From: Clostridia bacterium
GTDB lineage: Bacteria; Bacillota; Clostridia; Oscillospirales; Acutalibacteraceae
NCBI GenBank assembly: GCA_017409265.1
Contig: JAFQSY010000005.1
Span: forward strand, 17,724 to 81,723
Direction: 5' to 3'
Length of the DNA: 64,000 nucleotides
In this document: one piece after another, positions 39,010-55,584 of the stretch
Layout of the letters: the number at the start of each line of letters is the position of its first letter
Position numbering within the stretch: the stretch's first letter is position 1
The notes under the pieces: generated by a model
The model's input: only the letters and a program-made list of their open reading frames with translations
Told to the model about the DNA's origin: nothing
Databases searched by the model: none
Translations under genes and position numbers: made by a program

Positions 39010-39945
39010 TTACATGTGTTTCTCGATAAATGCCTTTACTTTTGCGTCATATTCTTCCTTTGCGTCGTAATAGCTGTAAGCATGGACTGCGCCCGGAACA
39101 GTGAAAATTTCTTTCGGGGTCGGACAGGCGTCATAAAGCTTTTGGCACATATCAAACGGAACAAAGGTGTCATCTTCGCCGTGAATAAAGAGAATGGGAT
39201 TTTTTGCGTTTGCCATTGTGCCGATAGGAGTTGCATCCTTTTTCAAATCATATTTTGCAAAAGCTTTGCAGAGGATGTTTGTTGCAGCAGGGGTAATCCT
39301 GCTTTTAAATCCGAATATATCCGAAACAACTGCCCTGACCTCTTCGTATGCGTCGGTAAATCCGCAGTCCTCAACGATGAGCTTGACCTGCTCACGGGGA
39401 TTGTTGTTGTTAACAAGCATTGATGTTGCCGCGCCCATTGAAATTCCGTGAAGCATGATTTCGATATTCTCGCCGAAACGCTCGATAAGATAATCAATCC
39501 ATAGGTTAATATCTTTATAGTCAAGTGCGCCGAAGCCGATGAATTTTCCGTCGCTTCTGCCGTGACCTCTCAAATCTGGAAGCAAATAGTTGAAGCCCAT
39601 GTCATTATGATAAAATCCGAAAAGATGGCCGCATTCATCGGGGCCGTTGCAGTTGTGACCGTGAACGGCAATAACGAAACGTTTTGTATCTTTTTCGGCA
39701 GGTACATACCATGCCTTGAGGCGAAGTCCGTCGGGCGAAATTATTTCCAAATCCTCGGGTTTATGAGAAAACAGATAAGCATTATTTTTCTTTCTGATTT
39801 CCGTGCGGAGAAGTCTTTTGGGGTCGGTGGGCGGTTTTTTGTTGCGGTTTGCAACGCAAGCCATTTTAAATCCGCCTGCGCCGAGAGAGAAAAAGCCGAG
39901 TGCGCCTATAACTCCCGCACCTAAAGCGACATTGCGTTTTTTCAT
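39010..39945 (-). CDS. Membrane-anchored alpha/beta hydrolase
   Basis: A 311-residue serine hydrolase. A hydrophobic N-terminal helix (residues ~8-30) anchors it, then an alpha/beta fold with HGHNCNGPDE (oxyanion region), nucleophile Ser in LHGISMGAATSM, Asp in FIHGEDDTFVPFD and His in GAVHAYSYYD. This resembles the BAAT/acyl-transferase-like or dienelactone-type hydrolases of Firmicutes annotated as 'alpha/beta hydrolase'. The ATG at 39945 is used because AGGAG ends 9 nt upstream; the TTG at 39954 abuts it. It is the first gene of a two-gene operon with the Thr-rich lipoprotein. Substrate unknown. Confidence 0.88.
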   Translation of the reverse strand: MKKRNVALGAGVIGALGFFSLGAGGFKMACVANRNKKPPTDPKRLLRTEIRKKNNAYLFSHKPEDLEIISPDGLRLKAWYVPAEKDTKRFVIAVHGHNCNGPDECGHLFGFYHNDMGFNYLLPDLRGHGRSDGKFIGFGALDYKDINLWIDYLIERFGENIEIMLHGISMGAATSMLVNNNNPREQVKLIVEDCGFTDAYEEVRAVVSDIFGFKSRITPAATNILCKAFAKYDLKKDATPIGTMANAKNPILFIHGEDDTFVPFDMCQKLYDACPTPKEIFTVPGAVHAYSYYDAKEEYDAKVKAFIEKHM

Positions 39946-40062
39946 TGCAGTCAACTCCTAAAATCATTTATAATTTCATAATAACACAGAGCGAAGAATA
40001 ATGCAAGATTTGCATAGTTTTAACGGCTCTGAAAAAAACAATAAAAAATTTTTAAAAAAGTG

Positions 40063-40091
40063 TTGACAAAACTAAAATCTTATAATATAAT
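40063..40091 (+). promoter_or_regulatory. Promoter of the tRNA-Met/tRNA-Glu operon
   Basis: TTGACA (40063-40068), 17-bp spacer, TATAAT (40086-40091), 30 nt before the first tRNA. The -10 region contains a second TATAAT at 40081. Confidence 0.85.
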
Positions 40092-40121
40092 AAACAAGCT
40101 CTTTGGTGAGGGCAGTTAAAT

Positions 40122-40197
40122 GGCGGCATAGCTCAGAGGCTAGAGCAACCGGTTCATACCCGGTAGGTCGTGGGTTCAAATCCAACTGCCGCTACCA
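40122..40197 (+). tRNA. tRNA-Met (CAT)
   Basis: Full cloverleaf: acceptor GGCGGCA/TGCCGCT, U8-A9, D arm GCTC...GAGC, anticodon stem ACCGG-TTCATAC-CCGGT with anticodon CAT, T arm GTGGG-TTCAAAT-CCAAC, encoded CCA. G1 pairs with T72, so it is an elongator rather than an initiator Met tRNA (no C1-A72 mismatch). Confidence 0.95.
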
Positions 40198-40204
40198 ATT
40201 TTTT

Positions 40205-40279
40205 GGCCCGGTGGTCAAGCGGTTAAGACACCGCCCTTTCACGGCGGTAACACGGGTTCGATTCCCGTCCGGGTCACCA
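40205..40279 (+). tRNA. tRNA-Glu (TTC)
   Basis: Acceptor GGCCCGG/CCGGGTC, anticodon stem CCGCC-CTTTCAC-GGCGG with TTC, T arm CGGG-TTCGATT-CCCG, encoded CCA. It lies 7 nt after tRNA-Met. Its last nine bases (GGGTCACCA) start a 33-bp repeat found again at 50105, making it the likely integration target of the following island. Confidence 0.96.
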
Positions 40280-40303
40280 AACACTTGATATCCGAACTAA
40301 TCT
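40271..40303 (+). repeat. Left 33-bp direct repeat (attL-like) at the tRNA-Glu 3' end
   Basis: Positions 40271-40303 are identical to 50105-50137. The repeat covers the tRNA 3' end GGGTCACCA, a short linker ACACTTG and the left arm of the tRNA terminator (ATATCCGAACTAATCT). Flanking bases differ on both sides. Confidence 0.85.
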
Positions 40304-40335
40304 ATGAAGATGGTTTAGTTTGGGTATCTTTTTTT
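40287..40335 (+). terminator. Terminator of the tRNA operon (island version)
   Basis: GATATCCGAACTAA (40287-40300) pairs with TTAGTTTGGGTATC (40315-40328) using two G-U pairs, then seven T. The left arm belongs to the 33-bp repeat; the right arm is specific to this side. Confidence 0.85.
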
Positions 40336-40356
40336 CTTATCAATAAGTAAACAGTA

Positions 40357-40398
40357 AAAAAGACGGTAGTAACTTTGATTTGTTACTACCGTCTTTTT
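40357..40398. terminator. Second, orphan terminator hairpin
   Basis: AAAAAGACGGTAGTAAC (40357-40373) pairs perfectly over 17 bp with 40382-40398, ending in T5. No gene lies between it and the previous terminator. It may insulate the island from tRNA transcription. The rest of 40399-40499 shows nothing. Confidence 0.85.
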
Positions 40399-40499
40399 AT
40401 GTATGGTTATGAGATTTTAATCTTCAAGATATTTTATCCACATATCCAGCCACAAAGCGATTATTTCTTTCCGCAATGTTTACAGCTTTTCAAATGCAT

Positions 40500-40557
40500 A
40501 ATCTTACAAAATCGTAAGATTCTTTTTATTGAAAAAATCACAGTATGCCCGTATAAT
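40500..40557 (+). promoter_or_regulatory. Promoter and operator of the island two-component system
   Basis: The dyad AATCTTAC-AAAATC-GTAAGATT (40500-40521) stands 7 nt upstream of TTGAAA (40529-40534), 17-bp spacer, TATAAT (40552-40557). The same ATCTTAC-N6-GTAAG motif precedes the ABC operon, so it is probably the binding site of the encoded regulator. Confidence 0.75.
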
Positions 40558-40599
40558 AAAAATATATAATTAAAGCAATTCCCAAGGGATGATGAAATT

Positions 40600-41265
40600 A
40601 TGAAACAAAGAATATTGCTTGTTGAGGATGATTCGTTTCTGCGTGACGGACTTACCGAAGTTTTACAGGGCGAAGGTTATGAGGTTATCAGTTCGGACAA
40701 CTGTATGAAAGCCCGTGAACTGATAAAATTCTTCTCTTTCAATCTGATTATATTTGATGTTATGCTTCCAGACGGCAACGGTCTTGAACTTTGCACCGAG
40801 CTTCGTGTGGTGGGCAATAATGTTCCCGTTCTGTTTCTGACTGCCTGCGATGATGAAATTCAGATTGTGCGTGGTCTTGATGCGGGTGCGGATGATTATG
40901 TCACAAAACCGTTCAAGCTTCGTGAACTGCTTTCAAGAATCCGTGCATTGCTCCGCAGAACATCGGCTGTCACGGTTTACAACAGTGATGATATAACAAT
41001 CGACACACTCAATATGTCTGTGCGAAAAAACGGTGAAAATATCTTTGTTACCCCCACGGAATTTCAGATTCTTTCCGTGCTTATCCGCAACGGCGGGATT
41101 ATTGTCACCCGTTCACAGCTTCTGCAGAACATCTGGGACAGCGACGGAAACTACATTGACGATAACACGCTATCTGTTCACATGAGCCGTTTGCGTGATA
41201 AAATCGGAAGCGGTCATATTGCCACCGTAAGAGGTATCGGTTACAGATGGGAGGATTCAAAATGA
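40600..41265 (+). CDS. OmpR-family response regulator of the island
   Basis: A 221-residue regulator with receiver residues ED-D (9-11), phospho-acceptor D53 (IIFDVMLPDGNG), Thr in FLTACDD and Lys in VTKPFKLRELLSRI, then a winged helix (PTEFQILSVLIRNGGIIVTRSQLLQNIWD, DDNTLSVHMSRLRDKIG, TVRGIGYRWED). It resembles the regulators of ABC-transporter-linked antimicrobial-peptide systems. Its stop overlaps the kinase start (ATGA at 41262-41265). It should bind the ATCTTAC-N6-GTAAG dyads upstream of itself and of the ABC operon; the first suggests autoregulation. Confidence 0.93.
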   Translation: MKQRILLVEDDSFLRDGLTEVLQGEGYEVISSDNCMKARELIKFFSFNLIIFDVMLPDGNGLELCTELRVVGNNVPVLFLTACDDEIQIVRGLDAGADDYVTKPFKLRELLSRIRALLRRTSAVTVYNSDDITIDTLNMSVRKNGENIFVTPTEFQILSVLIRNGGIIVTRSQLLQNIWDSDGNYIDDNTLSVHMSRLRDKIGSGHIATVRGIGYRWEDSK

Positions 41266-42158
41266 TTCCTTTCTTGATTTGTATAACGGTTATTTCGATT
41301 GTTACAACAATTATTTTAATTATATCGGATGCAAGAAAAAACAGACAGATAAATAATCTCAAAGAAAGCATTGAAAGCTTCGTTGAAGGCGGAGAAAAGG
41401 CAGAATACAGTACTGCCGACAGTAATTTTGCACGCCTTCAGAATGCCGTTGCCGAGCTTGAAAATCTGTTACTCCTTGAAAAAAGCAACTCCGAAGCACA
41501 GGTAAAAAGCAACGCAGATTTTGTTGCAGATATTTCACATCAACTTAAAACTCCGCTCGCGGGACTACGGCTTTACTGCGAAATGGAGCAGAGCTCAACG
41601 CCGACCGCTTACACAGAAAAAGAGCTTCAGCTGATTGCGAAAATGGAGAGTCTTGTTTTCAATCTTTTAAGGCTTGAGAAAATTAAAAGCGATGCATACG
41701 AAATGAAATTTGTCGAGCAAAGTCTTGATGAAATCGTTGGTGAGGTTATCGGGAATTTCAAACCGTTGTTCCCTGAAAAAGAATTCATTATAAACGGCAC
41801 GGCGACTTTTCGTTGTGACAAGGAATGGATGATTGAGGCAATCGGAAATATTATCAAAAATGCGTGTGAACATACAGAAACTGACGGCAGAATTACTGTT
41901 TCTGTTTTACAAAATGAAAGCTCGGTTACATTTGTTATTGAAGATAACGGCGGCGGAGTGCCGAAAGAACAGATTCCGCTTTTGTTCAACCGTTTTTACC
42001 GTGCGGATAATGCCTCACCCGAAAGTGCAGGTATAGGTCTTGCGATTTCAAAGGCGATTTTTGAAAAACATCACGCAACCGTTACTGCCGAAAACGGTAA
42101 AGACGGCTTAAAAATTACTGTGTGTTTTCCGTTGATAAACGCAAATTTAAAAATGTAA
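41262..42158 (+). CDS. Short sensor histidine kinase without extracellular domain
   Basis: A 298-residue kinase with one clear N-terminal membrane helix (residues 2-22), a ~60-residue coiled linker, then HisKA (DFVADISHQLKTPLAGLRL, H93) and HATPase (IIKNACEHTETDG, IEDNGGGVPKEQIPLLFNRFYRAD, GIGLAISKAIFEKHHATV). The lack of a sensor loop suggests it reads the state of the membrane or of the co-encoded transporter rather than an external ligand. ATG 41262 is chosen because GGGAGG (41249-41254) precedes it and the ATGA overlap couples it to the regulator; the ATG at 41247 sits on that site. Confidence 0.92.
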   Translation: MIPFLICITVISIVTTIILIISDARKNRQINNLKESIESFVEGGEKAEYSTADSNFARLQNAVAELENLLLLEKSNSEAQVKSNADFVADISHQLKTPLAGLRLYCEMEQSSTPTAYTEKELQLIAKMESLVFNLLRLEKIKSDAYEMKFVEQSLDEIVGEVIGNFKPLFPEKEFIINGTATFRCDKEWMIEAIGNIIKNACEHTETDGRITVSVLQNESSVTFVIEDNGGGVPKEQIPLLFNRFYRADNASPESAGIGLAISKAIFEKHHATVTAENGKDGLKITVCFPLINANLKM

Positions 42159-42188
42159 AGTCCGAAGATTTTCTTCGGATTTTTTCTT

Positions 42189-42244
42189 ATCTTACGAAAT
42201 TGTAAGGTTATCGTCACCAATTTGAAAGAATAGGGGTTTATAAT
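42189..42244 (+). promoter_or_regulatory. Operator and activator-type promoter of the ABC operon
   Basis: ATCTTAC-GAAATT-GTAAG (42189-42206) repeats the operator of the regulator gene. TATAAT follows at 42239-42244; no -35 hexamer is present at 17 bp, but the operator centre lies about 41 bp before the -10, as it does at the regulator promoter. This arrangement fits activation by the phosphorylated regulator. Confidence 0.65.
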
Positions 42245-42275
42245 GAACTCAACAAAGATGCAAAGGAGCGATTTT

Positions 42276-42959
42276 ATGAATATCATCGAATGCGTAGACT
42301 TAAGAAAAGAATATTTAAGCGGTGAAAATATTGTAAATGCCGTTGACGGAATAACCGTTGCTTTTGAACAGGGCGAATTCTGTGCAATAACGGGACCGAG
42401 CGGCTCGGGTAAATCAACACTTCTCCATGTTCTGAGCAGCCTTGAAAATCCCACAAGCGGTGATGTTATCTATAACGGCAAAAAGCTTTCGGGCTATAAC
42501 GATAATCAGCTTTCTGTTCTTCGCCGCAGACGTTTCGGATTCGTATTTCAGGCATATAATCTTGTTCAGGAACTGACGGGATATGAAAACATAGTTCTGC
42601 CCGTTATGCTTGACAAGAAAAAGGTTGACGAAGCTTATATCAACAAGGTTATTGATGTTCTCGGAATCGGGGACAGACTTGAACATTTGCCGTCAGCACT
42701 TTCGGGCGGTCAGCAGCAGAGAATCGCTATTGCCCGTGCACTTGCGAACAAGCCGTCAATCCTTTTTGCCGATGAGCCTACGGGTAACCTTGACGGCAAA
42801 AGCGGACGTGAGGTTCTTTCACTTCTCAAATATGTAAGTAAAGAATTTGGAATTACCCTTATTCTTGTTACCCATGACCTCAATGTCGCAGAGCAAGCGG
42901 AGAGAATTATATCAATTGAAGACGGTAAAATCGTTCGTGACACAAAGGCGGGAGTTTAA
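42276..42959 (+). CDS. ABC transporter ATP-binding protein (MacB/LolD type)
   Basis: A 227-residue ATPase: Walker A GPSGSGKST, Q-loop FVFQAYNLVQELTGYENI, signature LSGGQQQRIAIARALA, Walker B ILFADEPTGNLD, H-loop VTHDLNVAEQ. The LDGKSG D-loop wording and small size match the LolD/MacB/FtsE class that powers mechanotransmission rather than transport through the membrane. ATG 42276 is chosen for AAGGAG (42263-42268); the earlier ATG at 42243 lies in the promoter. It is followed 3 nt later by the first permease. Confidence 0.96.
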   Translation: MNIIECVDLRKEYLSGENIVNAVDGITVAFEQGEFCAITGPSGSGKSTLLHVLSSLENPTSGDVIYNGKKLSGYNDNQLSVLRRRRFGFVFQAYNLVQELTGYENIVLPVMLDKKKVDEAYINKVIDVLGIGDRLEHLPSALSGGQQQRIAIARALANKPSILFADEPTGNLDGKSGREVLSLLKYVSKEFGITLILVTHDLNVAEQAERIISIEDGKIVRDTKAGV

Positions 42960-42962
42960 GCA

Positions 42963-45740
42963 ATGAACAAGAAAAAGCTCACCGTCAACCGCCTTGCAAT
43001 GGGTAACCTCAAAGCAAGAAAAAAGCAGTACACCTTAATGATAATCGGCATTGTTCTTGCGATGATTTTTTCGTCGGGAGTTATGTTTTTCGGATTTACA
43101 ATGCTTTCATCATTACAGGAGATAACAAATATATCTTACGGCACACAGAACATATTTCTTCACAATGCGGAGGAATTTGATTTTGATGCCGCAAAGAATA
43201 ATAAAGTGATATCCGAATACGGTATTGCAGCTTCAATCGGGTTCATTTACACAAATGATGACGAGGGCGGCGGCACACCGCTTGCAAAACTTGATGACAA
43301 GGCAAAAGAAATTTCATATCTCACCGTAAAAGAAGGAAAATATCCCGAAAACAGCGGTGAAATTGCCCTTGAAAAGGATGCACTTTTAAGATTGAAATTG
43401 CTCGGTGCAAAAGTCGGCGACGAAATAACCGTCACAATGAAAATTGCTGACGGCGAAGGTTATCTCCCCGAAACCGTTGAAAAAACATATAAGCTTGTCG
43501 GAATTCTTGCCGATAAAAGATGCAATCTTGAAGATGCGTATTCAGGAAATAACTATCCTGCCGCATTTGTCTGCGACAGCGAAAAAGTTGAACTTGGCGG
43601 AAAAGAAAATCTTTCTGCATATGTCAAGTTCTATTCGAAAACAAACGGTTATGATAAATTCAAGGATGAATTTATTAATCAGGGTTTTAAAAATGAATAT
43701 GGCAATGCCGATAATGATCTGTATTATTTTACATTTGCAAATCAGCACATTTTTTACTCTGGTACAGATGAAAAAAGCGATATTACTTTAACAATGATTT
43801 TTGCGCTTATTCTTGCAGGTGTACTGATGATCGCTTCCTGCACGGGAATTGTCAATGCGTTCAATTCAAATCTTCAGGAACGCAGAAAACAAATCGGTCT
43901 TATGCGTGCGGTCGGCGCAACAAGAAGACAGATAATAACCGTTTTCGGCAGAGAAGCTCTCATAATCAGTCTTATGACCGTGCCTTTGAGTCTTGTGGTT
44001 TCCTATTTTGCTTCAAAAGGCATTATCTCTCTTATGGGCGAAAACTTCATTTTTATTCCTAACTTTTTCGTTCTGATTGCGTGCGGAGCGTTCAGCGTTA
44101 TTTGTGTTATGGCTTCGGCAATGATTCCTCTGTTAAGGGCATCAAGAACACCGCCGATGCAGGCTATCCGCAACACAGACCTTTCAAGAAAAATGAAGAA
44201 CAAACAAATCTGTTCAAAGAAAAACTTCAATGCACCGAAGATTCTTGCAGGCAGAAATCTTATGTTCTACCGTTTCAAGCATGTCGGAGTAAGTGTTGTT
44301 CTTGCGGCAACAATCGTTGTATCATGCTTCGGTTTTCCCTGGATTACAAGTGAGCTTGAATGGTCGGAAAATTATATCAATGAGTCCGAGGATTATGAAA
44401 TTGTTTGTTCCGGCGGAGCAATGAATTCCAATCTTATTAACCTGAATTTCAATTATTTTACAAGCGGATTCAGTGAAAATGACAGACAAGAAATTCTTTC
44501 CCATCCTTACGTCGGCAATGTTGAGGGCGTAAAAAGATGCAATGCCAACCTGCTTGTTGACGAATATTCCGAATATATGACCGTGCTCGATTACGGCGGT
44601 TCCTCACGGTATGATGATTCAGTTGACCGTTTATCAATTCCCTTTGAAGAATATAAAGAAAAATACGATGATAATATTAGTCCCGAATACTCCGCTGTCA
44701 AAGAAAAACTCAGATACACTCAGGAGCTTTTTCCTGTTTCGATTCACGCATTGGATTGTAATGAAATTATATCCGAAATTGACAAAGACAAAATTGAAGG
44801 TGAAATAAATATTGATAAGCTCAATTCGGGTGAAGAAATAATTCTTTATGTCTGCGATGAAATCGGTTTCTTTATTGATACCGAACAAGGCAGCAGGGGT
44901 GGCGGCAGTATTGACGGCGATGAAACTGAAGAAAGACTTGCTGCTTTGAAAGCAAGAGCCAAAAATGAATATAAAGTCGGCGATACCGTAACCTTGAGCG
45001 TTCTCAGAAGCGGAATATCCGAAGATAATTATGTGCCGAATTCAGTTCCCGCTGATACAACAAGAAAGGATAAGGAATTCCGAATCGGCGCGATAATCAA
45101 AGAATCGCCTTCTTCGATACATCATAATGATTATCTGGATTTTTACACAACCGTTGAAGGCTTTTCTTCTTTTGTTGATAATTATCCTTATCTTGATCTG
45201 GACATCACCTTGAAAGAAGAATGCACATCTGAAATTGACGGTGAAATGATGCAATTCCTCAATCAGTATGTTTCAGGCTCAAATCATTATCTGCGTTCTC
45301 AATTTGAGCGCAATGAGGAAAACAAAAACACCTACAGAGGCTTACTTATCGCTCTTCTTTCGGTTGTTATCCTTTTCTTCTCAATCTGTGCAAGCGTTAT
45401 AAACAACTCATTGACCGCACAAATCCGTGAAAGCAAGAGAGAAATCGGTACTCTGCGTGCAGTTGGCGCAAGTGCAAGAGAGCTTACGCAGTCATATTTC
45501 AGACAGCTTCTTTCGATGTTTGGCTGGGGCTGCGGTGCAGGTTTCGGACTTTATAGTGTTATATGGATTATTATGTATTTTGCCGCAAAATCAACGGATA
45601 TGAGTTTTGATTACAAATATCAGATCTGGCAGGCGGCACTCATCTGCATTGCGCTGCTTGCGGTTTGTTTTGTTAATCTTTATTCCAAAGTCAAAAAACA
45701 AATGAAATACAGTATTGTTGAGAATATCAGAGAATTATAA
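42963..45740 (+). CDS. Large FtsX-type ABC permease 1 (925 aa)
   Basis: A fused two-unit MacB/FtsX permease. Each half has an N-terminal helix, a large extracellular domain and a three-helix FtsX core. The first core includes ERRKQIGLMRAVGATRRQIITVFGREAL, then a short RNTDLSRKMKNK cytoplasmic linker. The second core has RESKREIGTLRAVGASARELTQSYFRQLL and ends KQMKYSIVENIREL. Extracellular domains cover about residues 45-265 and 470-760. It begins with a positively charged GNLKARKKQYTLMIIG signature shared with the next gene. Together with the ATPase it probably drives extracellular or envelope work (peptide resistance, lipoprotein or toxin handling). GGGAG precedes the ATG. Confidence 0.92.
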   Translation: MNKKKLTVNRLAMGNLKARKKQYTLMIIGIVLAMIFSSGVMFFGFTMLSSLQEITNISYGTQNIFLHNAEEFDFDAAKNNKVISEYGIAASIGFIYTNDDEGGGTPLAKLDDKAKEISYLTVKEGKYPENSGEIALEKDALLRLKLLGAKVGDEITVTMKIADGEGYLPETVEKTYKLVGILADKRCNLEDAYSGNNYPAAFVCDSEKVELGGKENLSAYVKFYSKTNGYDKFKDEFINQGFKNEYGNADNDLYYFTFANQHIFYSGTDEKSDITLTMIFALILAGVLMIASCTGIVNAFNSNLQERRKQIGLMRAVGATRRQIITVFGREALIISLMTVPLSLVVSYFASKGIISLMGENFIFIPNFFVLIACGAFSVICVMASAMIPLLRASRTPPMQAIRNTDLSRKMKNKQICSKKNFNAPKILAGRNLMFYRFKHVGVSVVLAATIVVSCFGFPWITSELEWSENYINESEDYEIVCSGGAMNSNLINLNFNYFTSGFSENDRQEILSHPYVGNVEGVKRCNANLLVDEYSEYMTVLDYGGSSRYDDSVDRLSIPFEEYKEKYDDNISPEYSAVKEKLRYTQELFPVSIHALDCNEIISEIDKDKIEGEINIDKLNSGEEIILYVCDEIGFFIDTEQGSRGGGSIDGDETEERLAALKARAKNEYKVGDTVTLSVLRSGISEDNYVPNSVPADTTRKDKEFRIGAIIKESPSSIHHNDYLDFYTTVEGFSSFVDNYPYLDLDITLKEECTSEIDGEMMQFLNQYVSGSNHYLRSQFERNEENKNTYRGLLIALLSVVILFFSICASVINNSLTAQIRESKREIGTLRAVGASARELTQSYFRQLLSMFGWGCGAGFGLYSVIWIIMYFAAKSTDMSFDYKYQIWQAALICIALLAVCFVNLYSKVKKQMKYSIVENIREL

Positions 45741-45767
45741 TTTTTACTCCGATGAAAGGAGGATAAA

Positions 45768-48668
45768 ATGAAACACAAAAATTTAACCGTAAATAAATTA
45801 GCTTTCGGTAATTTAAAAGCAAGAAGAAAGCAATATACATTAATGATAATCGGCATAATTCTTGCGATGATTTTCACAAGTGCCGCAATGTTTTTTGCGG
45901 TATGCAACGAGGATTCAGCACAGCAGCTGAAATGGCGTTCGGTCGGCAAGCAAGATTATATCCTTCGAAGATGCGACGGCTTTGATATTGAACCCTTTGT
46001 GAAAGACGGTTCGGTCAGAAGCTATGCAACCTTTGAGGTTATTGCCTACGGTTATTCACCCGATGATGATTTTGATGACGGTATGGGTATAGCTGTTCAC
46101 AATGATAAATCAAGGGAAATGTCCTGCTTTTATTTCCTTGAGGGAAGATATCCCGAAACCGAAAATGAAATTGCAATTGAGAGCGATGCACTTTACAGAA
46201 TGAACATCACCGATGTAAAGGTCGGCGATGAAATAACGCTCAATCTCCGTACTGTAAGCGGTGACAGTTTTCTTGAAAAAGAAACGCAGAAAACCTATAT
46301 TCTTTCTGGTATACTCAAGGACAGACGCTATAACTACGAAGAATGGGCAGGTCTTGGGCTCGGGAAAGAATGCCCCGAATATCCTGCAGCCATTGTTTAT
46401 GACGGAGCAGAGGTTGAAGTCGGAGGCAAGCCCGAAATAATAGCTCTCGTTGACTTTAATCACGAAGAAAGAATAAAAATCGGTTTTCACGACACACACA
46501 GAAACAACATTAAATTCAATGATGCATATAAAGCATATCTTTATCAGAGCGGAATCAAGGCGCTTTCGCCCGATGTTACCATTGATATCGACGGTAAGCC
46601 TCTTGTTTTGGAAAATATAGATGCCGGATATTGGATAGGTACAAGAGGCAACTCATTTTCGGACAACTATGTATATTACGGACTCCAAAGCGTTACAACT
46701 CTCGGAACGGTTCTTGCAGTAGTGCTTGCAATTGCATCCTGCTTCGGAGTTATAAATTCATTCAACACCAATCTGCAGGAAAGAAGGAAGCAGATTGGTA
46801 TGCTCCGTGCAGTCGGTGCGACAAAGAGGCAGATAATCAAGGTTTTCGGCAGGGAGGCGCTTTTAATCAGTTTAATTTGTGCCCCGATAAGCGTTGCTGT
46901 CGCTTATTTGGGCTTGAAGCTTTTCTCGTATTTAATGGGTGAGGTTTTCATTTTTGACCCCGAGTGGTATTTGATAATCATCATTGGCATTCTCGGAATC
47001 CTTTTTGTTATGGTGGCGGCACTTATTCCTCTGTTCTATGCCGCAAGAGTAACTCCGATGCAGGCAATCAGAAACACCGAGCTCGGCAGAAAAATGAAGA
47101 ATAAAAAAATAAAGTCCGTAAAGGATTTCAACGCACAGAAGCTTATTTCAAAAAGAAGCCTTGTTTTCCACCGCTTCAGGCAGATAAGCGTAAGCATTAT
47201 TCTGATTGCAACCATTATCATCAGCTGCTTCTGCGTTTCGCTCCTTGAATATTCGGTCAATATTTATTCTTATGACTATGATTACAGAATATTTAAAGAT
47301 GAAGCGGACAACGGTCTCAGCACCGCCTTTGCAAATTTTTATTACGATTATGACGATATGCTCGATAACGGCGATATCGATACGATTGCCTCAAACCGTT
47401 ATGTTGGTACTGCAACGGGCAAAATGCAGCTCGCCGTCAATTGGCTTGTGGACGGTGACTACCCCGAGTATCTTAAGCTTGCGGAATTCAACAGAGCCGA
47501 AAATTATGACAAATATGAATATATGCTTGAAACGCACAAAGAAACTCCCGAAGAAATAATCGAAATCTATAACACTATGGATTATTCGGATGCATATAAG
47601 GAACTTATGGAAGTTGTTGGTTATGAAACTGAGCCGTTTGGCTCAAAAATCGAAACCGAGAGCGAAGAAAATATCAAATCGCTTGAAAAGCATCTGCTCG
47701 ACGGCAAAATCGACATCGAAAAGATAAATTCGGGCGAAGAAATAATCCTTGTGGCACCTGAAGAAATCGTTTATGAGATAGCATACAGCAAAGACGGGTA
47801 TCATATGAGCGCAGGACACCATCATATTAACAACGGACTGCGCGTTTATACAAGTGTAGGCGATTATGTTGAAATCTTCAGAGAAAAAATGCCGTTCAGG
47901 GCAGGAGATACGGTAAATCTAAGCATACTTATCTGCAATGAAAGAGAAAACACAAGGATTCCTGAATATCAAAAGGCATATGACTACAAATATTCCAGAT
48001 ATGACCGAGAGGTAAAAATCGGTGCAATTGTTTATCAGGGATATTTTGAACCTCAGATTATAAGCAATAGACCTTCATTCATAACAACCAACGAGGGTCT
48101 TTCTGAATTCGGCTGCCCGCTTCGCTATGAATTCATTGATGTTACCGCAAATCAGGAAATAACACCCGAAATTGAGGAGTCGTTTGGTGCCTTTTTCCGC
48201 GCAGCGGATTATGATACAGATTCGCAATACCGTCTTAATGAGTCAAATAAAACAGAATTAATTGCAACAGTTGCAGGTATAGCTTCAATCATTCTGCTTC
48301 TTTTCTGCATTGCGGCAAGCCTTGTCAATAATGCTCTGACGGCGAAAATCCGAGAAGGCAAGCGTGAAATCGGAACTCTGCGCGCCGTCGGTGCAAGCGC
48401 AAAAGAACTTACGATGGTTTATATTCATCAGCTGCTTTCAACATTCGGAATGGGTTGCGGTCTGGGATTCGGAATCTACACAGCAGTTTTCTTCTCGGCA
48501 AAGCTGATTTGTCTTTATTGTCTGCATATGGAGTTCCCGTTTGAATTCCGTATTCTTACAGCTGTGGTAATATGCCTTGTGCTGTTTGCGGTTTGTTCGC
48601 TCAACCTTTATTCAAAAATCAAAAAGCAGATGAAATACAGCATTGTTGAAAATATCAGGGAGTTATAA
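45768..48668 (+). CDS. Large FtsX-type ABC permease 2 (966 aa)
   Basis: A paralogue of the previous permease with the same layout: GNLKARRKQYTLMIIGIILAMIF at the N-terminus, ERRKQIGMLRAVGATKRQIIKVFGREALL in the first FtsX core, RNTELGRKMKNKK linker, REGKREIGTLRAVGASAKELTMVYIHQLL in the second and the same C-terminal KQMKYSIVENIREL. The membrane parts are closely alike but the extracellular domains differ clearly (for example the His-rich GHHHINNGL region near residue 680), so the pair likely forms a heterodimer that binds an asymmetric ligand. AAAGGAGG precedes the ATG. Confidence 0.92.
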   Translation: MKHKNLTVNKLAFGNLKARRKQYTLMIIGIILAMIFTSAAMFFAVCNEDSAQQLKWRSVGKQDYILRRCDGFDIEPFVKDGSVRSYATFEVIAYGYSPDDDFDDGMGIAVHNDKSREMSCFYFLEGRYPETENEIAIESDALYRMNITDVKVGDEITLNLRTVSGDSFLEKETQKTYILSGILKDRRYNYEEWAGLGLGKECPEYPAAIVYDGAEVEVGGKPEIIALVDFNHEERIKIGFHDTHRNNIKFNDAYKAYLYQSGIKALSPDVTIDIDGKPLVLENIDAGYWIGTRGNSFSDNYVYYGLQSVTTLGTVLAVVLAIASCFGVINSFNTNLQERRKQIGMLRAVGATKRQIIKVFGREALLISLICAPISVAVAYLGLKLFSYLMGEVFIFDPEWYLIIIIGILGILFVMVAALIPLFYAARVTPMQAIRNTELGRKMKNKKIKSVKDFNAQKLISKRSLVFHRFRQISVSIILIATIIISCFCVSLLEYSVNIYSYDYDYRIFKDEADNGLSTAFANFYYDYDDMLDNGDIDTIASNRYVGTATGKMQLAVNWLVDGDYPEYLKLAEFNRAENYDKYEYMLETHKETPEEIIEIYNTMDYSDAYKELMEVVGYETEPFGSKIETESEENIKSLEKHLLDGKIDIEKINSGEEIILVAPEEIVYEIAYSKDGYHMSAGHHHINNGLRVYTSVGDYVEIFREKMPFRAGDTVNLSILICNERENTRIPEYQKAYDYKYSRYDREVKIGAIVYQGYFEPQIISNRPSFITTNEGLSEFGCPLRYEFIDVTANQEITPEIEESFGAFFRAADYDTDSQYRLNESNKTELIATVAGIASIILLLFCIAASLVNNALTAKIREGKREIGTLRAVGASAKELTMVYIHQLLSTFGMGCGLGFGIYTAVFFSAKLICLYCLHMEFPFEFRILTAVVICLVLFAVCSLNLYSKIKKQMKYSIVENIREL

Positions 48669-48673
48669 TAACT

Positions 48674-49966
48674 ATGAAAAAAATATTCATTTTAATAATG
48701 TGTTTGCTGTTTTGCTTTGCACCGCTAACTACCGCTTTTGCCGAGGAAATACCCTCACAGCCGAAGGTTATGGTTACGGACTACAAAACCGAAGGTGAAC
48801 TCAAAGCAGGAAATACAGCAAAAATATCAGTCACCCTTACAAACAAAAGCAAAACCGAATATGTCAGAAATATGAAACTGACCTTTTCTGATTCAAGCGG
48901 CGACATCGTGCCCGTTGGAGTTGCATCGGGTTATGTTGACAGACTTAACGCAAAAAAATCCGTAACTTGGAATATTGATGTCCGAGTTTCGGATTCCGCT
49001 ACCGACGGCAACCATGCCGTTAACATAATATGCGAGTTTGAAAGTGAAGCAGGCAGCGGTTCATCATCCGATGTAATCAATCTTAATGTAATCGGCAAAA
49101 AAGAAGTTGAAACAACAACATCGAATGACACGTCTCAACCCCGTCTTATGGTTACGGAATACACAGTTGAAAACGGCAGTATTATTCCGGGCGAAAGCAG
49201 AAAAGTGTACATCACAATCAAAAACACAAGTCCGTCAAAGGCAGTAAGCAACATAAAACTCTCTCTTTCCGATGACAGCGGTGAACTCAAAACGGATGGT
49301 ATGGGTACCGCTTATGTAAAGAGCATTTCAGCAAACGGCACATACGTATGGACTGTCGGATTAACTGCCGTTCACACAGCAAAAACAGGTGAACACCCTC
49401 TGACTCTTTCAATGGAATATGAGGACTCAAATCATTCGGGATATTCTGCGAATGATACAATCAGAGTTAACATTAAACAGAGTGTTATGCTGAAATACGA
49501 TTCCGCGAGACTGCCTTCAAAATCAATTCAGGGAGAAACCGTAACCGTCAGCATAAATCTTATGAATACTGGTAAAAGCACAATTCATAATGCAATGATT
49601 GACGTTGATGTAAAAGGACTTGACAGCGGCGGCACGGTGCTTGTCGGCGAAATCCCGCAAGGTGAAAGCAAAACGGGAAGTGTAAATCTTCGTGTCAGTA
49701 ATGAAATTCTCGGTAAGGTTGAAGGTGCAATTACAATAAATTATGAGGATGACTTTGGCGAAACCTATACCGAAACAGTCGATGTTTCAACCGTTATCGA
49801 AGAAAAAGTTATCAAGACTGAAGCCGAAGAAGAGGAAGAAAAGAAAAATCCTCTCTGGTGGTTGTTTATGCTCATCGGTGCAATCATCGGCGGCTCTCTC
49901 GGCTTCGGAATACCTTATGCAATCCGTTCAAACAAACAACGCAAAGAAGATGAAAAGAGATTGTGA
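48674..49966 (+). CDS. Membrane-anchored Ig-like (CARDB-type) repeat protein
   Basis: A 430-residue exported protein: signal peptide (cleaved after AFA, ~23), then three Ig-like beta-sandwich repeats of ~110 residues. Each opens PKVMVTDY/PRLMVTEY/VMLKYDS and contains LKAGNTAKISVTLTNKS-type strands typical of CARDB/COG1361 domains. An acidic linker (EEEEEK) leads to a single C-terminal helix (WWLFMLIGAIIGGSLGFGIPYAI) and a short basic tail, so the repeats face outside. It starts 5 nt after the second permease and closes the operon. It probably acts as the extracellular partner or docking protein of the ABC system. Confidence 0.85.
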   Translation: MKKIFILIMCLLFCFAPLTTAFAEEIPSQPKVMVTDYKTEGELKAGNTAKISVTLTNKSKTEYVRNMKLTFSDSSGDIVPVGVASGYVDRLNAKKSVTWNIDVRVSDSATDGNHAVNIICEFESEAGSGSSSDVINLNVIGKKEVETTTSNDTSQPRLMVTEYTVENGSIIPGESRKVYITIKNTSPSKAVSNIKLSLSDDSGELKTDGMGTAYVKSISANGTYVWTVGLTAVHTAKTGEHPLTLSMEYEDSNHSGYSANDTIRVNIKQSVMLKYDSARLPSKSIQGETVTVSINLMNTGKSTIHNAMIDVDVKGLDSGGTVLVGEIPQGESKTGSVNLRVSNEILGKVEGAITINYEDDFGETYTETVDVSTVIEEKVIKTEAEEEEEKKNPLWWLFMLIGAIIGGSLGFGIPYAIRSNKQRKEDEKRL

Positions 49967-49969
49967 TTG

Positions 49970-49984
49970 GTATATCGGTTATAC
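49970..49984. repeat. Short GTATA-TCGGT-TATAC hairpin
   Basis: The perfect 5-5-5 dyad sits 3 nt after the stop of the island's last gene and resembles CGTAT-CGGCT-ATACG at 18376-18390. A weak terminator or a small repeat. The rest of 49985-50104 contains only an 8-bp dyad AAAATCAG/CTGATTTT and a weak TTGACA (50074). Confidence 0.4.
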
Positions 49985-50104
49985 GCATTTCTGCCTTTTG
50001 AAAATCAGATCCATTATGTAATAAAAAAACAGAGAAGCCATACGACTGATTTTAATAATGCCAATTTGTTGCATTGACAAAAGTTTATGTGTTTTGTGAA
50101 ATTA

Positions 50105-50137
50105 GGGTCACCAAACACTTGATATCCGAACTAATCT
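50105..50137 (+). repeat. Right 33-bp direct repeat (attR-like)
   Basis: Identical to 40271-40303: last nine bases of tRNA-Glu, linker, and the left arm of the tRNA terminator. The rest of the tRNA is missing here. Confidence 0.85.
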
Positions 50138-50161
50138 GATGATTGGTTCGGATATTTTTTG
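50122..50161 (+). terminator. Probable original tRNA-Glu terminator
   Basis: ATATCCGAACTAATC (50122-50136) pairs with GATTGGTTCGGATAT (50141-50155) over a TGAT loop with one G-U pair, then TTTTTG. It is a better hairpin than the copy beside the tRNA, suggesting it is the ancestral one. Confidence 0.85.
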
Positions 50162-50228
50162 TTTGTATATTGTCTATTTTGGTTTTATCTGTTAAACTGA
50201 AAATTATAATCCGTGGGAGGTATAGACA

Positions 50229-51464
50229 ATGATAAAAATAGGTATATTCGGCGCAGGCAGAGGAGTTGACATTGCAAAGAATTTAATGCTCCTTGATTGC
50301 GAAATAGTTGCTCTTTGCGATTTTAACGAAAAACGAAGAAATGAAGGTCTTGAAAAGCTCGGCATTGACGTTGCTGTTTTTGAGAATTTTGATGATTTTA
50401 TCGAGCAGGAAATGGATGCGGTTGTTCTTGCGAATTATTTCCATGAGCATACACCTTATGCCATAAAATGTTTTGAAAAGGGAATACATGTTTTCTGTGA
50501 ATGCATCAGCAACGGTACAATGGCAGAGGGTGTTGAGCTTATCCGTGCATATGAAAAGAGCAATTCAATTTATATGCTCGCAGAGAACTATCCCCAGATG
50601 ATATTTAACCGTGAGATGAAAAGAGTATGCGACGGCGGAAGTCTCGGAAAAATTCTTTATGCGGAAGGCGAATATAATCATCCCGTTCAGCCTGATGACC
50701 ATGAGTTCAACAAAGCTGCCGTTTATTTTACCGACCATTGGAGAAATTTCTTACCCCGTTCATATTATTTAACTCATTCGCTTGCTCCGCTTATGTGGTC
50801 AACGGGAGCAACTCCGAAAAGAGTAAGTGCAACGCCTGTTTATGCACCTTTCAAGGAAAACGTAACCGCAAGACGTGTAGGGGACAGAGCCGCAATTATA
50901 ACCACCGTAAATGATGATGACTCCGTTTTCAGAGTGACAGGTTGTGCTGCTTTTGGCGCTCACCACAATGCTTACCGCATTTGCGGCGAAAAAGGACAGA
51001 TTGAAAATCTCCGTGGCATGGGAGATAAGATAATGCTCCGTTATAATGACTGGCATATTCCCGAAGGAAAAGAAGAGATTAACCTTTATGAACCCAAGTG
51101 GAACGATAATGATGAAGAATTTATTGAGAAGAGCGGTCACGGCGGCGGTGATTATATAATTGCAAGAATGTTCCTTGACTGCATCAGAAAAGGCGGTGAG
51201 CCGGAGCATCCGTACGACATATATTCTGCGGTTGCGATGGCATCAACGGCAATTCTTGCGCACCGTTCGATTCTTAACGGCGGAATGCCCTACGATATTC
51301 CTGATTTCAGACTTGAGGAATGCCGCAAGGAATATGAAAATGACAGGCAGACTCCGTTCTGCGGCACAGACGGCAGCAAGCCCAACATTCCCTGTTGCTC
51401 AAACCCCGATTATTCTCCTACCGAAGAGCAGATAAGGAAGATGGCTGAAATTTTGGAAAGTTGA
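50229..51464 (+). CDS. Gfo/Idh/MocA-family oxidoreductase
   Basis: A 411-residue dehydrogenase: GIFGAGRGVDIAKNLM at the dinucleotide site, ALCDFN acidic strand end, FHEHTPYAIKCFEKGIHVFCECISNGTMAEG where the usual EKP lysine motif reads ECISN, MLAENYPQMIFNREMKR and a C-terminal sheet. Loss of the EKP lysine makes a true dehydrogenase role less certain; some members act as hydrolases or sensors. GGGAGG precedes the ATG at 9 nt. A weak promoter TTGTCT-17-TAAACT (50170-50198) is possible. It lies directly outside the island. Substrate unknown. Confidence 0.82.
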   Translation: MIKIGIFGAGRGVDIAKNLMLLDCEIVALCDFNEKRRNEGLEKLGIDVAVFENFDDFIEQEMDAVVLANYFHEHTPYAIKCFEKGIHVFCECISNGTMAEGVELIRAYEKSNSIYMLAENYPQMIFNREMKRVCDGGSLGKILYAEGEYNHPVQPDDHEFNKAAVYFTDHWRNFLPRSYYLTHSLAPLMWSTGATPKRVSATPVYAPFKENVTARRVGDRAAIITTVNDDDSVFRVTGCAAFGAHHNAYRICGEKGQIENLRGMGDKIMLRYNDWHIPEGKEEINLYEPKWNDNDEEFIEKSGHGGGDYIIARMFLDCIRKGGEPEHPYDIYSAVAMASTAILAHRSILNGGMPYDIPDFRLEECRKEYENDRQTPFCGTDGSKPNIPCCSNPDYSPTEEQIRKMAEILES

Positions 51465-51470
51465 CATAAC

Positions 51471-51500
51471 AAAAAAGCACACCTGTCGGTGTGCTTTTTT
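51471..51500. terminator. Bidirectional terminator between the dehydrogenase gene and the tRNA cluster
   Basis: AAAAAAGCACACC (51471-51483) pairs with GGTGTGCTTTTTT (51488-51500) over TGTC. On the minus strand it directly follows tRNA-Gln. Confidence 0.93.
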
Positions 51501-51502
51501 TC

Positions 51503-51577
51503 TGGCTGGGACGGCTGGATTTGAACCAGCGAGTGCGGGAGTCAAAGTCCCGTGCCTTACCGCTTGGCGACGCCCCA
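51503..51577 (-). tRNA. tRNA-Gln (TTG)
   Basis: Minus strand: acceptor TGGGGCG/CGTCCCA, anticodon stem CGGGA-CTTTGAC-TCCCG with TTG, T arm GCTGG-TTCAAAT-CCAGC, encoded CCA. It is the last gene of the four-tRNA cluster, three bases from the terminator. A CGCAAAGC/GCTTTGCG hairpin (51601-51621) lies between it and tRNA-His. Confidence 0.94.
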
Positions 51578-51636
51578 ATATTATTTTTAATATTAAAATA
51601 CGCAAAGCATCAAGCTTTGCGTAACTTCAAACTAAA

Positions 51637-51714
51637 TGGGGTGGCTGATGAGATTCGAACTCACGACCTCCAGGGCCACAACCTGGCACTCTAACCAACT
51701 GAGCTACAGCCACC
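51637..51714 (-). tRNA. tRNA-His (GTG)
   Basis: Minus strand: acceptor GTGGCTG/CAGCCAC with the extra G-1 opposite C73 that marks His tRNA, anticodon stem CCAGG-TTGTGGC-CCTGG with GTG, encoded CCA. Confidence 0.95.
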
Positions 51715-51744
51715 ATTTGAAAGCTGCGAAATGATTCGCAGCTT

Positions 51745-51821
<77 letters not shown>

Positions 51822-51827
51822 ATAAAA

Positions 51828-51901
51828 TGGAGCGGGTGATGGGAATCGAACCCACACAACCAGCTTGGAAGGCTGGGATTCTACCATTGAACTACACCCG
51901 C
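51828..51901 (-). tRNA. tRNA-Gly (TCC)
   Basis: Minus strand: acceptor GCGGGTG/CACCCGC, anticodon stem with loop CTTCCAA and anticodon TCC, T arm GTGGG-TTCGATT-CCCAT, encoded CCA. First gene of the cluster, 19 nt behind the -10 box. Confidence 0.95.
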
Positions 51902-51919
51902 ATATTTGGAACGAAAGCT

Positions 51920-51948
51920 ATTTTATCATAAGACTTTTAAAATGTCAA
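51920..51948 (-). promoter_or_regulatory. Promoter of the tRNA cluster
   Basis: Minus strand TTGACA (51948-51943), 17-bp spacer ending TGA, TAAAAT (51925-51920), extended -10. Confidence 0.85.
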
Positions 51949-52003
51949 TAGCAATTTAATTTTATTTCCAAAATTATTTTATGCCGCTAATGTTTATTGA
52001 TGC

Positions 52004-52032
52004 TTGACAAGAAAATTAAAATGTGATATTAT
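52004..52032 (+). promoter_or_regulatory. Promoter of the T-box/trpB unit
   Basis: TTGACA (52004-52009), 17-bp spacer ending TGA, TATTAT (52027-52032), extended -10. Confidence 0.85.
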
Positions 52033-52039
52033 CAAGAAA

Positions 52040-52325
52040 AATCAATAAAGATAAACCGTTGATGCGGAGATAACGGCAATCATGCCTTCACAGAGAGCCT
52101 GCGATGCTGAAAATCAGGCAAGAAACAAGTTGTCAAATGGGCCGCGGAGGGTGCAGTCAAATGAACGCAGTTTCAGAGTATCTGCAACGTGATGGCATAC
52201 GTTAGTTGCCGGGGATATGTCAGTATTCCGCAAAGTGTGCGGCGTTTTGCCGCAAATCAAGGTGGCACCACGGATTTTTATTCGTCCTTGACAGAATAGC
52301 TTCTGTCGGGGGCGTTTTATTTTTG
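52040..52325 (+). ncRNA. T-box leader (tRNA-Trp-sensing)
   Basis: A ~285-nt leader with the T-box consensus AAGGTGGCACCACGG (52259-52273), the AGAGAG distal loop element (52092-52097) in stem I, and a terminator stem CGTCC...GACAGAA / TTCTGTC...GGGCG (52283-52313) followed by TTTTATTTTT. TGG at 52138-52140 lies where the specifier codon is expected in the 3' side of stem I, which fits Trp and the trpB gene downstream. Uncharged tRNA-Trp would bind and favour the antiterminator formed with the T-box sequence. Confidence 0.85.
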
Positions 52326-52340
52326 GAAGAAGGATTTTAA

Positions 52341-52430
52341 ATGGTACTGTTAACAAAACGATGGCGATGCATGAAACAAACTTTACAATCGCTAATTAGT
52401 ATTCTTATTTTACGGAGGAAATTACAATGA
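52341..52430 (+). CDS. Small ORF (29 aa) between T-box and trpB, coupled to trpB
   Basis: ATG 52341 is preceded by AGAAGGA and the frame ends in TGA at 52428-52430, which overlaps the trpB ATG (52427-52429) as ATGA. The 29-residue product is basic with one Trp codon (KRWRC) and a hydrophobic middle (SLISILIL). The trpB ribosome binding site CGGAGG lies within its last codons, so translation of the ORF could open or couple trpB initiation. Whether it is translated is not shown by the sequence; conservation in relatives would decide. Confidence 0.45.
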
Positions 52431-53647
52431 AATTCAACAATGTAGATTTTGACACATATTTTAACAATTATCCCGATGCAAACGGATATTTCGGAAAATA
52501 CGGCGGAGTTTTTATTGATGATAAGCTCAAGGCAGCTATGGCTGAAATAACAGAGGCTTATTATTCGATCTGTCAGTCAAGAAAGTTCATTGCGGAGCTT
52601 CGCAGAATCAGAAAAGAGTTTCAGGGCAGACCCACTCCCGTAACTCATCTTGAAAGACTCTCGGATGCACTCGGCGGCAAGGTTCAGCTTTATGCAAAGC
52701 GCGAGGATCTGAACCATTCGGGTGCTCATAAGCTCAACCACTGCATGGGCGAAGCTCTTCTTGCAAAATATATGGGTAAAAAGAAGGTTATCGCCGAAAC
52801 AGGCGCAGGCCAGCACGGTGTTGCTCTTGCAACAGCAGCTGCATATTTCGGTCTTGAGTGTGATATTTATATGGGCTCTGTTGATATCAAAAAGCAGGCG
52901 CCCAACGTCGCAAGAATGAAGATTCTCGGCGCAAATGTTGTTGAGGTTACTCACGGACTTCAGACTCTCAAAGAAGCTGTTGATGCAGCTTTTGATGCTT
53001 ACAGCAAGGAGTATAAGGATTCGATTTACTGCATCGGCTCTGTTCTCGGTCCTCATCCCTTCCCGATGATGGTTCGTGATTTCCAGAGCATTGTCGGCAT
53101 CGAAGCAAGAGACCAGTTCATTGAAATGACGGGTCATCTTCCCAGTGCAATCGTTGCATGCGTAGGCGGCGGCTCAAATGCGGCAGGTCTTTTTGCAGGC
53201 TTCCTCAATGACCCCGTTGATGTCTATGGAATTGAGCCTCTCGGCAGAGGCCCCAAGCTCGGCGACCACGCAGCAAGCCTTAAGTACGGTACAGAGGGTG
53301 TTATGCACGGCTTCAACAGCATCATGCTCAAGGATGAAAATGGCGACCCCGCACCCGTTTATTCGGTTGCAAGCGGACTTGATTATCCCTCATCGGGTCC
53401 CGAGCATGCTTTCCTTCAGGAAATCGGCAGAGTAAAGTATGATGTAATTGATGACGAAGAAACCATTGATGCATTCTATAAGCTTTCACGCCTTGAGGGC
53501 ATCATTCCCGCAATCGAAAGCTCACACGCGGTTGCATTCGGCATGAAGCTTGCAAAGACTATGGACCACGGCTCAATCCTAATTAATCTCTCAGGCAGGG
53601 GTGATAAGGATATGGACTATGTAATTGAAAATTACGGAATCAGATAA
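52427..53647 (+). CDS. trpB: Tryptophan synthase beta chain
   Basis: PLP enzyme joining indole and serine to tryptophan. The 406-residue chain has [10 protein letters not shown] near the N-terminus, [28 protein letters not shown] with PLP lysine K102, [32 protein letters not shown] for the phosphate, [16 protein letters not shown] and [13 protein letters not shown]. The PLP loop reads HSGAHKLNH rather than the usual HTGAHKIN, a conservative variation. CGGAGG precedes the ATG. It stands alone under a Trp-type T-box, with no trpA nearby, so it may salvage free indole, a metabolite common in the gut; that use is inference. Confidence 0.95.
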
Positions 53648-53658
53648 GTTTGCTTTTT

Positions 53659-53694
53659 ATGGTGCAACTCCGACGGAGCTGCACCATATTTTTT
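53659..53694 (+). terminator. Terminator of trpB
   Basis: ATGGTGCAACTCC (53659-53671) pairs with GGAGCTGCACCAT (53675-53687) with one mismatch, then ATTTTTT. Confidence 0.85.
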
Positions 53695-53702
53695 AAACAG
53701 CA

Positions 53703-53731
53703 TTGCAAAAAATGGCATAATGTTGTAAAAT
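53703..53731 (+). promoter_or_regulatory. Promoter of the Na/Pi cotransporter gene
   Basis: TTGCAA (53703-53708), 17-bp spacer, TAAAAT (53726-53731), about 31 nt before the ATG. Confidence 0.65.
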
Positions 53732-53762
53732 ATGATTAAAGTATGTTCAAAAAGGTGATTTC

Positions 53763-55445: not shown

Positions 55446-55462
55446 CGGTATAATAAAACAAG

Positions 55463-55497
55463 AAAAAATCCTGTCATACATATGGCAGGATTTTTTT
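55463..55497 (+). terminator. Terminator of the cotransporter gene
   Basis: AAAAAATCCTGTCATA (55463-55478) pairs with TATGGCAGGATTTTTT (55481-55496) with one G-U pair, then T. Confidence 0.88.
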
Positions 55498-55584
55498 GAA
55501 AGTTTACAATATGTTAACCGATTACGTGAAAATATAATATAAAATAATATACAGAAAAATGCGGATTTGTGCGGAGGTCAGGGC

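Follow-up and report, generated by a model that had tools for sequence, protein, structure and literature searches.

Tyrosine integrases are described in surveys, as far as the parts considered here go, at the 3′ ends of tRNA genes, and most serine integrases inside protein-coding genes. Among the closest described serine-recombinase systems, the ICEs and dICEs integrated at rumA in streptococci have their att site inside the integrase gene, and integration swaps its 3′ parts (Ambroset et al., 2016, PMC4701971). A recombination site within the integrase gene is also reported for one streptococcal serine IME, and the IME literature deals with relaxases of the MobV type as well (Coluzzi et al., 2017, PMC5357655; Guedon et al., 2017, PMC5704250). 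In Dehalococcoides, islands with the serine recombinase DsiB are found at the 3′ end of the tmRNA gene (ssrA) and have ~20-bp repeats (PMC3146451). For LI integrase, the zinc-domain positions are 16–24 in attP and 11–19 in attB (Rutherford et al., 2013, PMC3783163). Serine-type integrases are seldom reported at tRNA genes; relatives of the island analysed here place one at the ends of tRNA-Glu and tRNA-Lys. We consider it very probable that the island is a fossil of an integrative, probably mobilizable element which entered the 3′ end of tRNA-Glu by means of a large serine recombinase (LSR). The evidence, comparative throughout, consists of the element ends, an unoccupied site, an LSR next to the core and the cargo in relatives, a promoter scar and the spacing of motifs.

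The island and its insertion site

The window, that is, the whole 64,000-nucleotide stretch analysed, lies on contig C65 of the draft genome G000 (2.5 Mb in 91 contigs, 80% complete). It was compared with 45 genomes of the same genus, those of the relatives being MAG assemblies. Positions 40271–40303 and 50105–50137 are identical over 33 bp, exactly as the earlier note had it, and lie 9834 bp apart; by our own arithmetic, a 64-kb sequence would contain an exact repeat like this by chance with a probability of ~3e-11. As also recognized there, the left copy opens with the final nine bases of tRNA-Glu, the sole tRNA-Glu of the window according to ARAGORN (40205–40279), and each copy starts a terminator-like hairpin when folding is compared with that of 200 shuffled sequences. 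The left hairpin (−21.6 kcal/mol, z −5.5) was equalled by one of the 200 shuffles and the right one (−28.1, z −9.0) by none. In the 45 genomes, a pattern made from the initial 32 repeat bases (beginning with GGR, three mismatches at most) located seven places in five genomes; six are 3′ ends of tRNA-Glu or tRNA-Lys and the seventh is the right copy in the window, whereas the reversed control pattern gave no matches in the same genomes. The features of the locus are as follows.

40122–40197, + strand: tRNA-Met, left flank
40205–40279, + strand: tRNA-Glu (ARAGORN), proposed integration target; T-loop GTTCGATT ends 10 nt 5′ of the TC core
40271–40303, + strand: left repeat copy, attL core plus element arm
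40271–40472, + strand: left end also present downstream of tRNA-Lys in G009 (96%) and G021 (95%), followed there by a MobV gene
40287–40328, + strand: terminator-like hairpin in a stretch without stop codons in the frame of the LSR (proposed LSR tail)
40290–40297, + strand: mirror motif ATCCGAAC, 14 nt past the TC core; proposed P′ arm, a putative role
40357–40398, no strand assigned: second hairpin of the element left end
40600–41265, + strand: response regulator, OmpR type
41247–42158, + strand: histidine kinase
42243–42959, + strand: ABC ATPase
42963–45740, + strand: FtsX-domain permease 1, 925 aa
45768–48668, + strand: FtsX-domain permease 2, 966 aa
48674–49966, + strand: CARDB/Ig-like protein
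50052–50104, + strand: remnant of the LSR upstream region, 53 columns aligned with G021 without gaps, up to the −10-like region
50105–50137, + strand: right repeat copy; core GGGTCACCA immediately 3′ of the promoter remnant
50121–50156, + strand: right terminator-like hairpin
50124–50131: mirror motif in the right repeat copy, spacing 14
50229–51464, + strand: Gfo/Idh/MocA-type dehydrogenase, right flank

Insertion at the 3′ end of tRNA-Glu, as proposed in the earlier note, is corroborated by the unoccupied arrangement in G026, in which the counterparts of window positions 40033–40301 (94%) and 50105–51452 (78%) adjoin, giving the order tRNA-Met, tRNA-Glu, terminator and dehydrogenase. Nor do all relatives carry the same genes at this place; in several of them, the operon lies elsewhere. 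The next gene on the left (39010–39954) is found beside tRNA-Met/Glu in G019 and was not found within the stretch fetched from G026. The composition of the island is less telling: its GC content is indeed lower (0.404 for 40304–50104 versus a mean of 0.430, sd 0.012, for sliding 9.8-kb windows), but the difference is mild, with two of 108 windows equally low or lower, and the GC3 of the island genes (0.37–0.45) overlaps that of the flank genes (0.41–0.53). Composition was therefore dropped as a mark of the island.

The DNA from 40271 onwards recurs downstream of tRNA-Glu in G019 (90% over 126 nt) and downstream of tRNA-Lys in G009 (96% over 202 nt), G021 (95% over 202 nt) and G020 (97% over 134 nt). 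In G009 and G021, this left end is followed by a MobV/Pre relaxase gene truncated by the contig end; the NCBIfam MobV model, which was run on the G021 fragment only, scored above its cut-off. No MobV relaxase is present among the six main ORFs of the window. The contigs with MobV and those with the LSR would represent parts of one element. On contig C86 of the same genome as the window, the DNA past tRNA-Lys matches the left end as well (84% over 105 nt). This locus (L085:9946-10764) comprises tRNA-Lys, the related left end, inverted-repeat DNA that we read as IS-like, and the remaining 3′ portion of a CARDB gene (94%), and is a second decayed element with the same cargo.

The surroundings of the site vary among the relatives. 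The dehydrogenase follows tRNA-Lys in G018 (L088) and G003 (L092) and tRNA-Glu in G026 (L087), and exchange between two target sites of the integrase could explain this difference. A block of tRNA-Gln/His/Arg/Gly, together with DNA near 55.5 kb (51472–55973 versus L081:4576-6436), is inverted in G019 and located upstream of tRNA-Met/Glu, a rearrangement around the integration site. Further to the right in the window, a T-box leader scoring above the gathering threshold (52050–52292) precedes a PALP-family gene at 52427, probably trpB.

Cargo

Pfam searches of the six main ORFs confirmed the contents given in the earlier note, namely, a two-component system, an ABC ATPase, two FtsX permeases and an Ig-like protein, and none of the six matched an integrase model, again in agreement with that note. 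A permease at least 68% identical to permease 2 is encoded in seven of the 44 other genomes. Among the operon copies compared with that of the window, the regulator (95–100%) and the ATPase (97–100%) are nearly constant, and the first and second permeases range from 53 to 97% and from 41 to 90% identity, respectively. Permease 1 is 97% identical to that of G004; permease 2 is 70% identical to that of G004 and 88% to that of G013. G025 encodes a single permease which combines a permease-1-like start with a permease-2-like body. As judged from these comparisons, the permease variation (42963–48668; L132-L137, L091) looks like module swapping.

The cargo may be a peptide sensing and export module of the BceAB/PsdAB type: a two-component system, an ABC ATPase and FtsX-type permeases are all encoded, although the two large permeases differ from such modules. 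The best PDB match of permease 2 is the lantibiotic permease PsdB, a weak match (E 4e-5) restricted to the FtsX domain, and the match of the kinase to BceS (E 2e-5) ranks far below its other matches. Peptide sensing, detoxification or export would be the likeliest role of the cargo. The defence/resistance role suggested in the earlier note drew little support: in a PADLOC scan of the four cargo proteins other than the regulator and kinase, the only matches were those of the ATPase to mad3 (E 2e-33), likely an ABC cross-match, and of permease 2 (E 3e-5), neither of them convincing. In G009, two defence-like genes lie between the CARDB and LSR genes (L086:10065-14194). One encodes a relative of the anti-phage dCTP deaminase (PADLOC dCTPase, E 9e-117; NCBIfam 350 bits, below the cut-off of 400) and the other a PD-Lambda-1-like T5orf172 protein (PADLOC, E 1.5e-81). 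We rejected the notion that the cargo always travels with the LSR, given that, within the sequence retrieved from G012, G018 and G004, the operon is not near any LSR of this clade.

The serine recombinase of related elements and its remnant in the window

In G009, the permease 2 and CARDB genes (4060 positions at 87% nucleotide identity) precede two further genes and then that of a 556-aa serine recombinase, the reading frame of which runs through GATAGGGTCACCA into a terminator, with the same dehydrogenase as in the window beyond. This protein (P0001) has the domains of an LSR, with Pfam matches to Resolvase (E 3e-25), Recombinase (E 2e-11) and zinc ribbon (E 4e-10). G021 displays the order FtsX, CARDB, recombinase (93–95% identical to the G009 LSR), core and a terminator resembling that of the G018 tRNA-Lys. 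A second regulator-kinase-ATPase set lies directly 3′ of this LSR core and tRNA-Lys-type terminator (L127:5237-7494), and because it follows the LSR core, the operon may have sat beside tRNA-Lys before the element arrived. In G019, only the C-terminal part of the LSR is present, adjoining the core and the dehydrogenase.

Overall, nine of the 45 genomes contain an LSR match of at least 56% identity, the next matches among those listed being at most 43% identical. The genome of the window (80% complete) lacks an LSR of this clade, its best match reaching 29%. A genome-contig search returned nine loci, seven at 59% or more, and at least six of the nine come from genomes already in the comparison; a family search across 398 genomes at E 1e-120 gave one match, G015, with at least seven genomes of this genus among the entries shown. 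Viral contigs yielded 35 LSR relatives, all at most 41% identical apart from one 49% fragment. An integrase of its own, as expected of an IME, is present in the relatives' elements and missing from the six window ORFs.

A related whole element on one contig, 11.3 kb from core to core, was found in G027, in the order tRNA-Glu, left end, two large surface-type proteins, recombinase, core and another terminator. Five ORFs of at least 100 aa are listed for this element, including that of the LSR, which has an in-frame TAA; the two giant cargo ORFs matched no integrase model. G015 encodes an uninterrupted LSR of the clade ~35 kb past tRNA-Glu, with another recombinase (33% identical) in between, and this stretch may comprise more than one element. 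Past this LSR core comes another left end, which matches the first at 86% over 1296 nt (L126:18725-20000), a case of tandem accretion. The LSR cores of G035 and G044 are likewise followed by DNA of the left-end type.

The window retains a scar of this gene. Immediately before the right repeat copy, 42 of 53 columns are identical to the LSR upstream region of G021, and none of 2000 shuffles reached the score; this remnant contains a −35-like TTGACA at 50074. The same holds for the LSR promoter of G009, with 36 matching columns and one gap (0/2000 shuffles). The region directly 3′ of the G009 CARDB gene contains no promoter match (237 of 2000 shuffles were equally good), as would be expected should other genes lie in between. 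The base after the promoter remnant is that of the core GGGTCACCA; since the core directly abuts the remnant, the LSR gene is missing between a point just past its promoter and the core, a loss for which deletion at a 2-bp TA match would suffice. The attL is complete, whereas the window attR has no element arm, so that the island does not have the two intact att sites of a CIME. Because the deletion took this arm, excision by a related recombinase is unlikely, as is present-day mobility of the island, which is probably a fossil; the suggestion in the earlier note that it might be cis-mobilizable is hence disfavoured.

Attachment sites and the proposed route of integration

At the tRNA-Lys sites, the sequence of attL is GGATCACCA and that of the proposed attR is GGGTCACCA, pointing to exchange within TCACCA; the 33-bp length of the repeat thus overstates the exchange core. 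The two ends lie on different contigs, and their pairing as attL and attR in G009 and G021 is presumptive. In 8/8 LSR ends examined (that of G008, the ninth, was left out), an 8-nt GTTCG motif stops 15 nt short of TC, and the T-loop supplies this motif 10 nt before TC in 4/4 tRNAs. Compared with attB, the motif expected to contact the zinc domain is accordingly displaced outwards by 5 bp in attP, a shift known for LSRs. GTTCG occurs just once or twice per LSR gene.

On the other side of the core, a mirror motif was surveyed. A locus search matched 37 of the 45 genomes and gave loci for 30 rows; these, together with five tRNA-Lys loci (L085, L088, L092, L093, L135), make up the 35 tRNA-Glu/Lys sites. 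The pattern was composed after viewing left ends and loosened to admit G016. The mirror motif is at spacing 14 in 16 of the 35 sites. Two sites show a spacing of 15, one a spacing of 11, and one combines 3 with 14; in 16 sites, there is none within the stretch scanned. Among the rows compared for motif spacing, which had been labelled by hand beforehand, G036 was entered as a left end and is without the motif, and the spacing is 11 at the G026 site and 15 at that of G040. Counted from the centre of TC, the attP motif occupies positions 17–24, the mirror motif 16–23 and the tRNA motif 12–19. These spacings are facts of the sequence; the part they would play in recombination is our interpretation.

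The core lies inside the LSR reading frame, and integration would therefore change the C-terminus of the enzyme. In G009, G021 and G019, the LSRs use the GTC-ACC frame, which stays open through the left ends of these genomes, and the remaining frames soon close there. In G027 and G015, the LSR frame is TCA-CCA and is likewise open in the left end, although another frame is open longer; G035 and G044 have two additional open frames. Despite the different core frames, the tail words YE(D/N)GLVWVSFF are shared by the G000-type left ends and G027, and a looser form occurs in G008, G035, G044 and G036; they are absent from the G015, G016 and G028 left-end types. Because this DNA is also constrained by the hairpin, these data are moderate evidence that the C-terminus changes in this way and that former LSR tail DNA becomes the terminator of the tRNA. 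A reading for the whole family would then be that the T-loop, widely conserved among tRNAs, serves as the zinc-domain motif of attB, exchange takes place at the acceptor end, attP lies in the integrase gene, the tail is swapped for host-coded residues, the tail DNA left behind forms the new terminator, and loss of the tail might switch the stability or direction of the integrase. Given that the frames are ambiguous, the tail words are missing in some types and the motif is post hoc, we regard this reading as evenly poised between right and wrong.

For the island itself, we propose the following scenario. The LSR would exchange strands inside TCACCA, probably at TC (tRNA positions 71–72). The zinc-domain motif of attB would be the T-loop GTTCGA(T/A)T, 10 nt from TC; attP would carry this motif 15 nt from TC in the 3′ end of the LSR gene, with the mirror motif 14 nt away on the other side. 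Integration would keep the tRNA whole and provide it with the left end of the element, at once the severed tail-coding end of the LSR gene and a terminator hairpin, and the LSR gene would gain a new tail from the old terminator of the target. In the window, the LSR gene between a point just past its promoter and the core would then have been lost in one deletion and the relaxase side in another, in whichever order, fixing the sensor/ABC/FtsX cargo in place.

The origin of the right copy can be read in two ways, both compatible with this scenario. It may be the native terminator and the source of the left end of the element. With about the same chance of being true as not, it is instead the left end of an older, lost tandem element and no native terminator: the 24 bp past the core are identical to the element left end with the element-type spacing of 14 kept, a tandem arrangement is seen past the LSR core in G015 (the 86% stretch of 1296 nt), and left-end-type DNA past those of G035 and G044, but the hairpin is near perfect and the DNA beyond resembles the unoccupied site of G026. 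Improbable, in our estimate, is homologous recombination between the tRNA-Lys and tRNA-Glu regions through common terminator-like DNA, producing the repeat and bringing the cargo without integration. The operon located 2.2 kb past tRNA-Lys in G012 without an LSR, the CARDB remnant past tRNA-Lys in the window's own genome and the alternative positions of the dehydrogenase in G018 and G026 would fit such a process, which, however, would not be expected to leave a promoter scar at the right edge of the island or an LSR at the corresponding edge in G009, G019 and G021. The classical tyrosine-recombinase island with a lost integrase, to which the earlier note attributed the repeat, is very improbable: tyrosine integrases typically leave a long direct repeat that begins in the 3′ end of a tRNA (PMC4383910, as far as the part considered here goes), but scans of the six window ORFs and of ORFs from the G027 element revealed no tyrosine integrase, it is an LSR that occupies the core of the relatives' elements, including that of G027 with its two giant cargo ORFs devoid of integrase matches, the window keeps an LSR promoter, and the spacings obey the 5-bp rule of LSRs.

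Long repeats at tRNA genes thus need not imply a tyrosine recombinase. The arrangement offers a search rule, namely, that the GTTCG motif precedes TC by 10 nt in the tRNA and flanks it in the element at 15 nt upstream and 14 nt downstream, and a working LSR of this group could be a useful insertion tool. Within a partial literature search, mostly of titles and the beginnings of abstracts, we found neither a serine integrase at a tRNA end using a T-loop motif nor an integrase tail turned into a terminator. What appears new is a serine integrase acting at a tRNA end with the att site in its own gene; tail swapping and a serine recombinase at tmRNA were already known.

In the portions of the published descriptions considered here, the LI/A118 integrase likewise has its zinc-domain motif 5 bp nearer the core in attB (PMC3783163), and the LI positions of 11–19 in attB and 16–24 in attP correspond to about 12–19 and 16–24 in the sites of the relatives' LSRs. 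Unlike in LI/A118, the attB motif here is the T-loop of a tRNA, and no conserved right arm of attB was seen. As in the rumA elements, the C-terminus of the enzyme would change upon integration; those elements, however, target a protein gene, and the part of that report considered tells of no terminator role (PMC4701971), whereas the target here is a tRNA end. The 16 serine IMEs of the streptococcal survey similarly reside in rumA, in ICE genes or in intergenic regions, with none in a tRNA gene in the parts considered (PMC5357655, PMC5704250). The Dehalococcoides islands resemble the present elements in the use of an RNA-gene 3′ end, a serine recombinase, tandem islands and decayed members, but differ, according to the portion of the report considered, in having a CcrB-like module with a second recombinase and an insertion point placed in the T-loop (PMC3146451), rather than at the acceptor end as proposed here.
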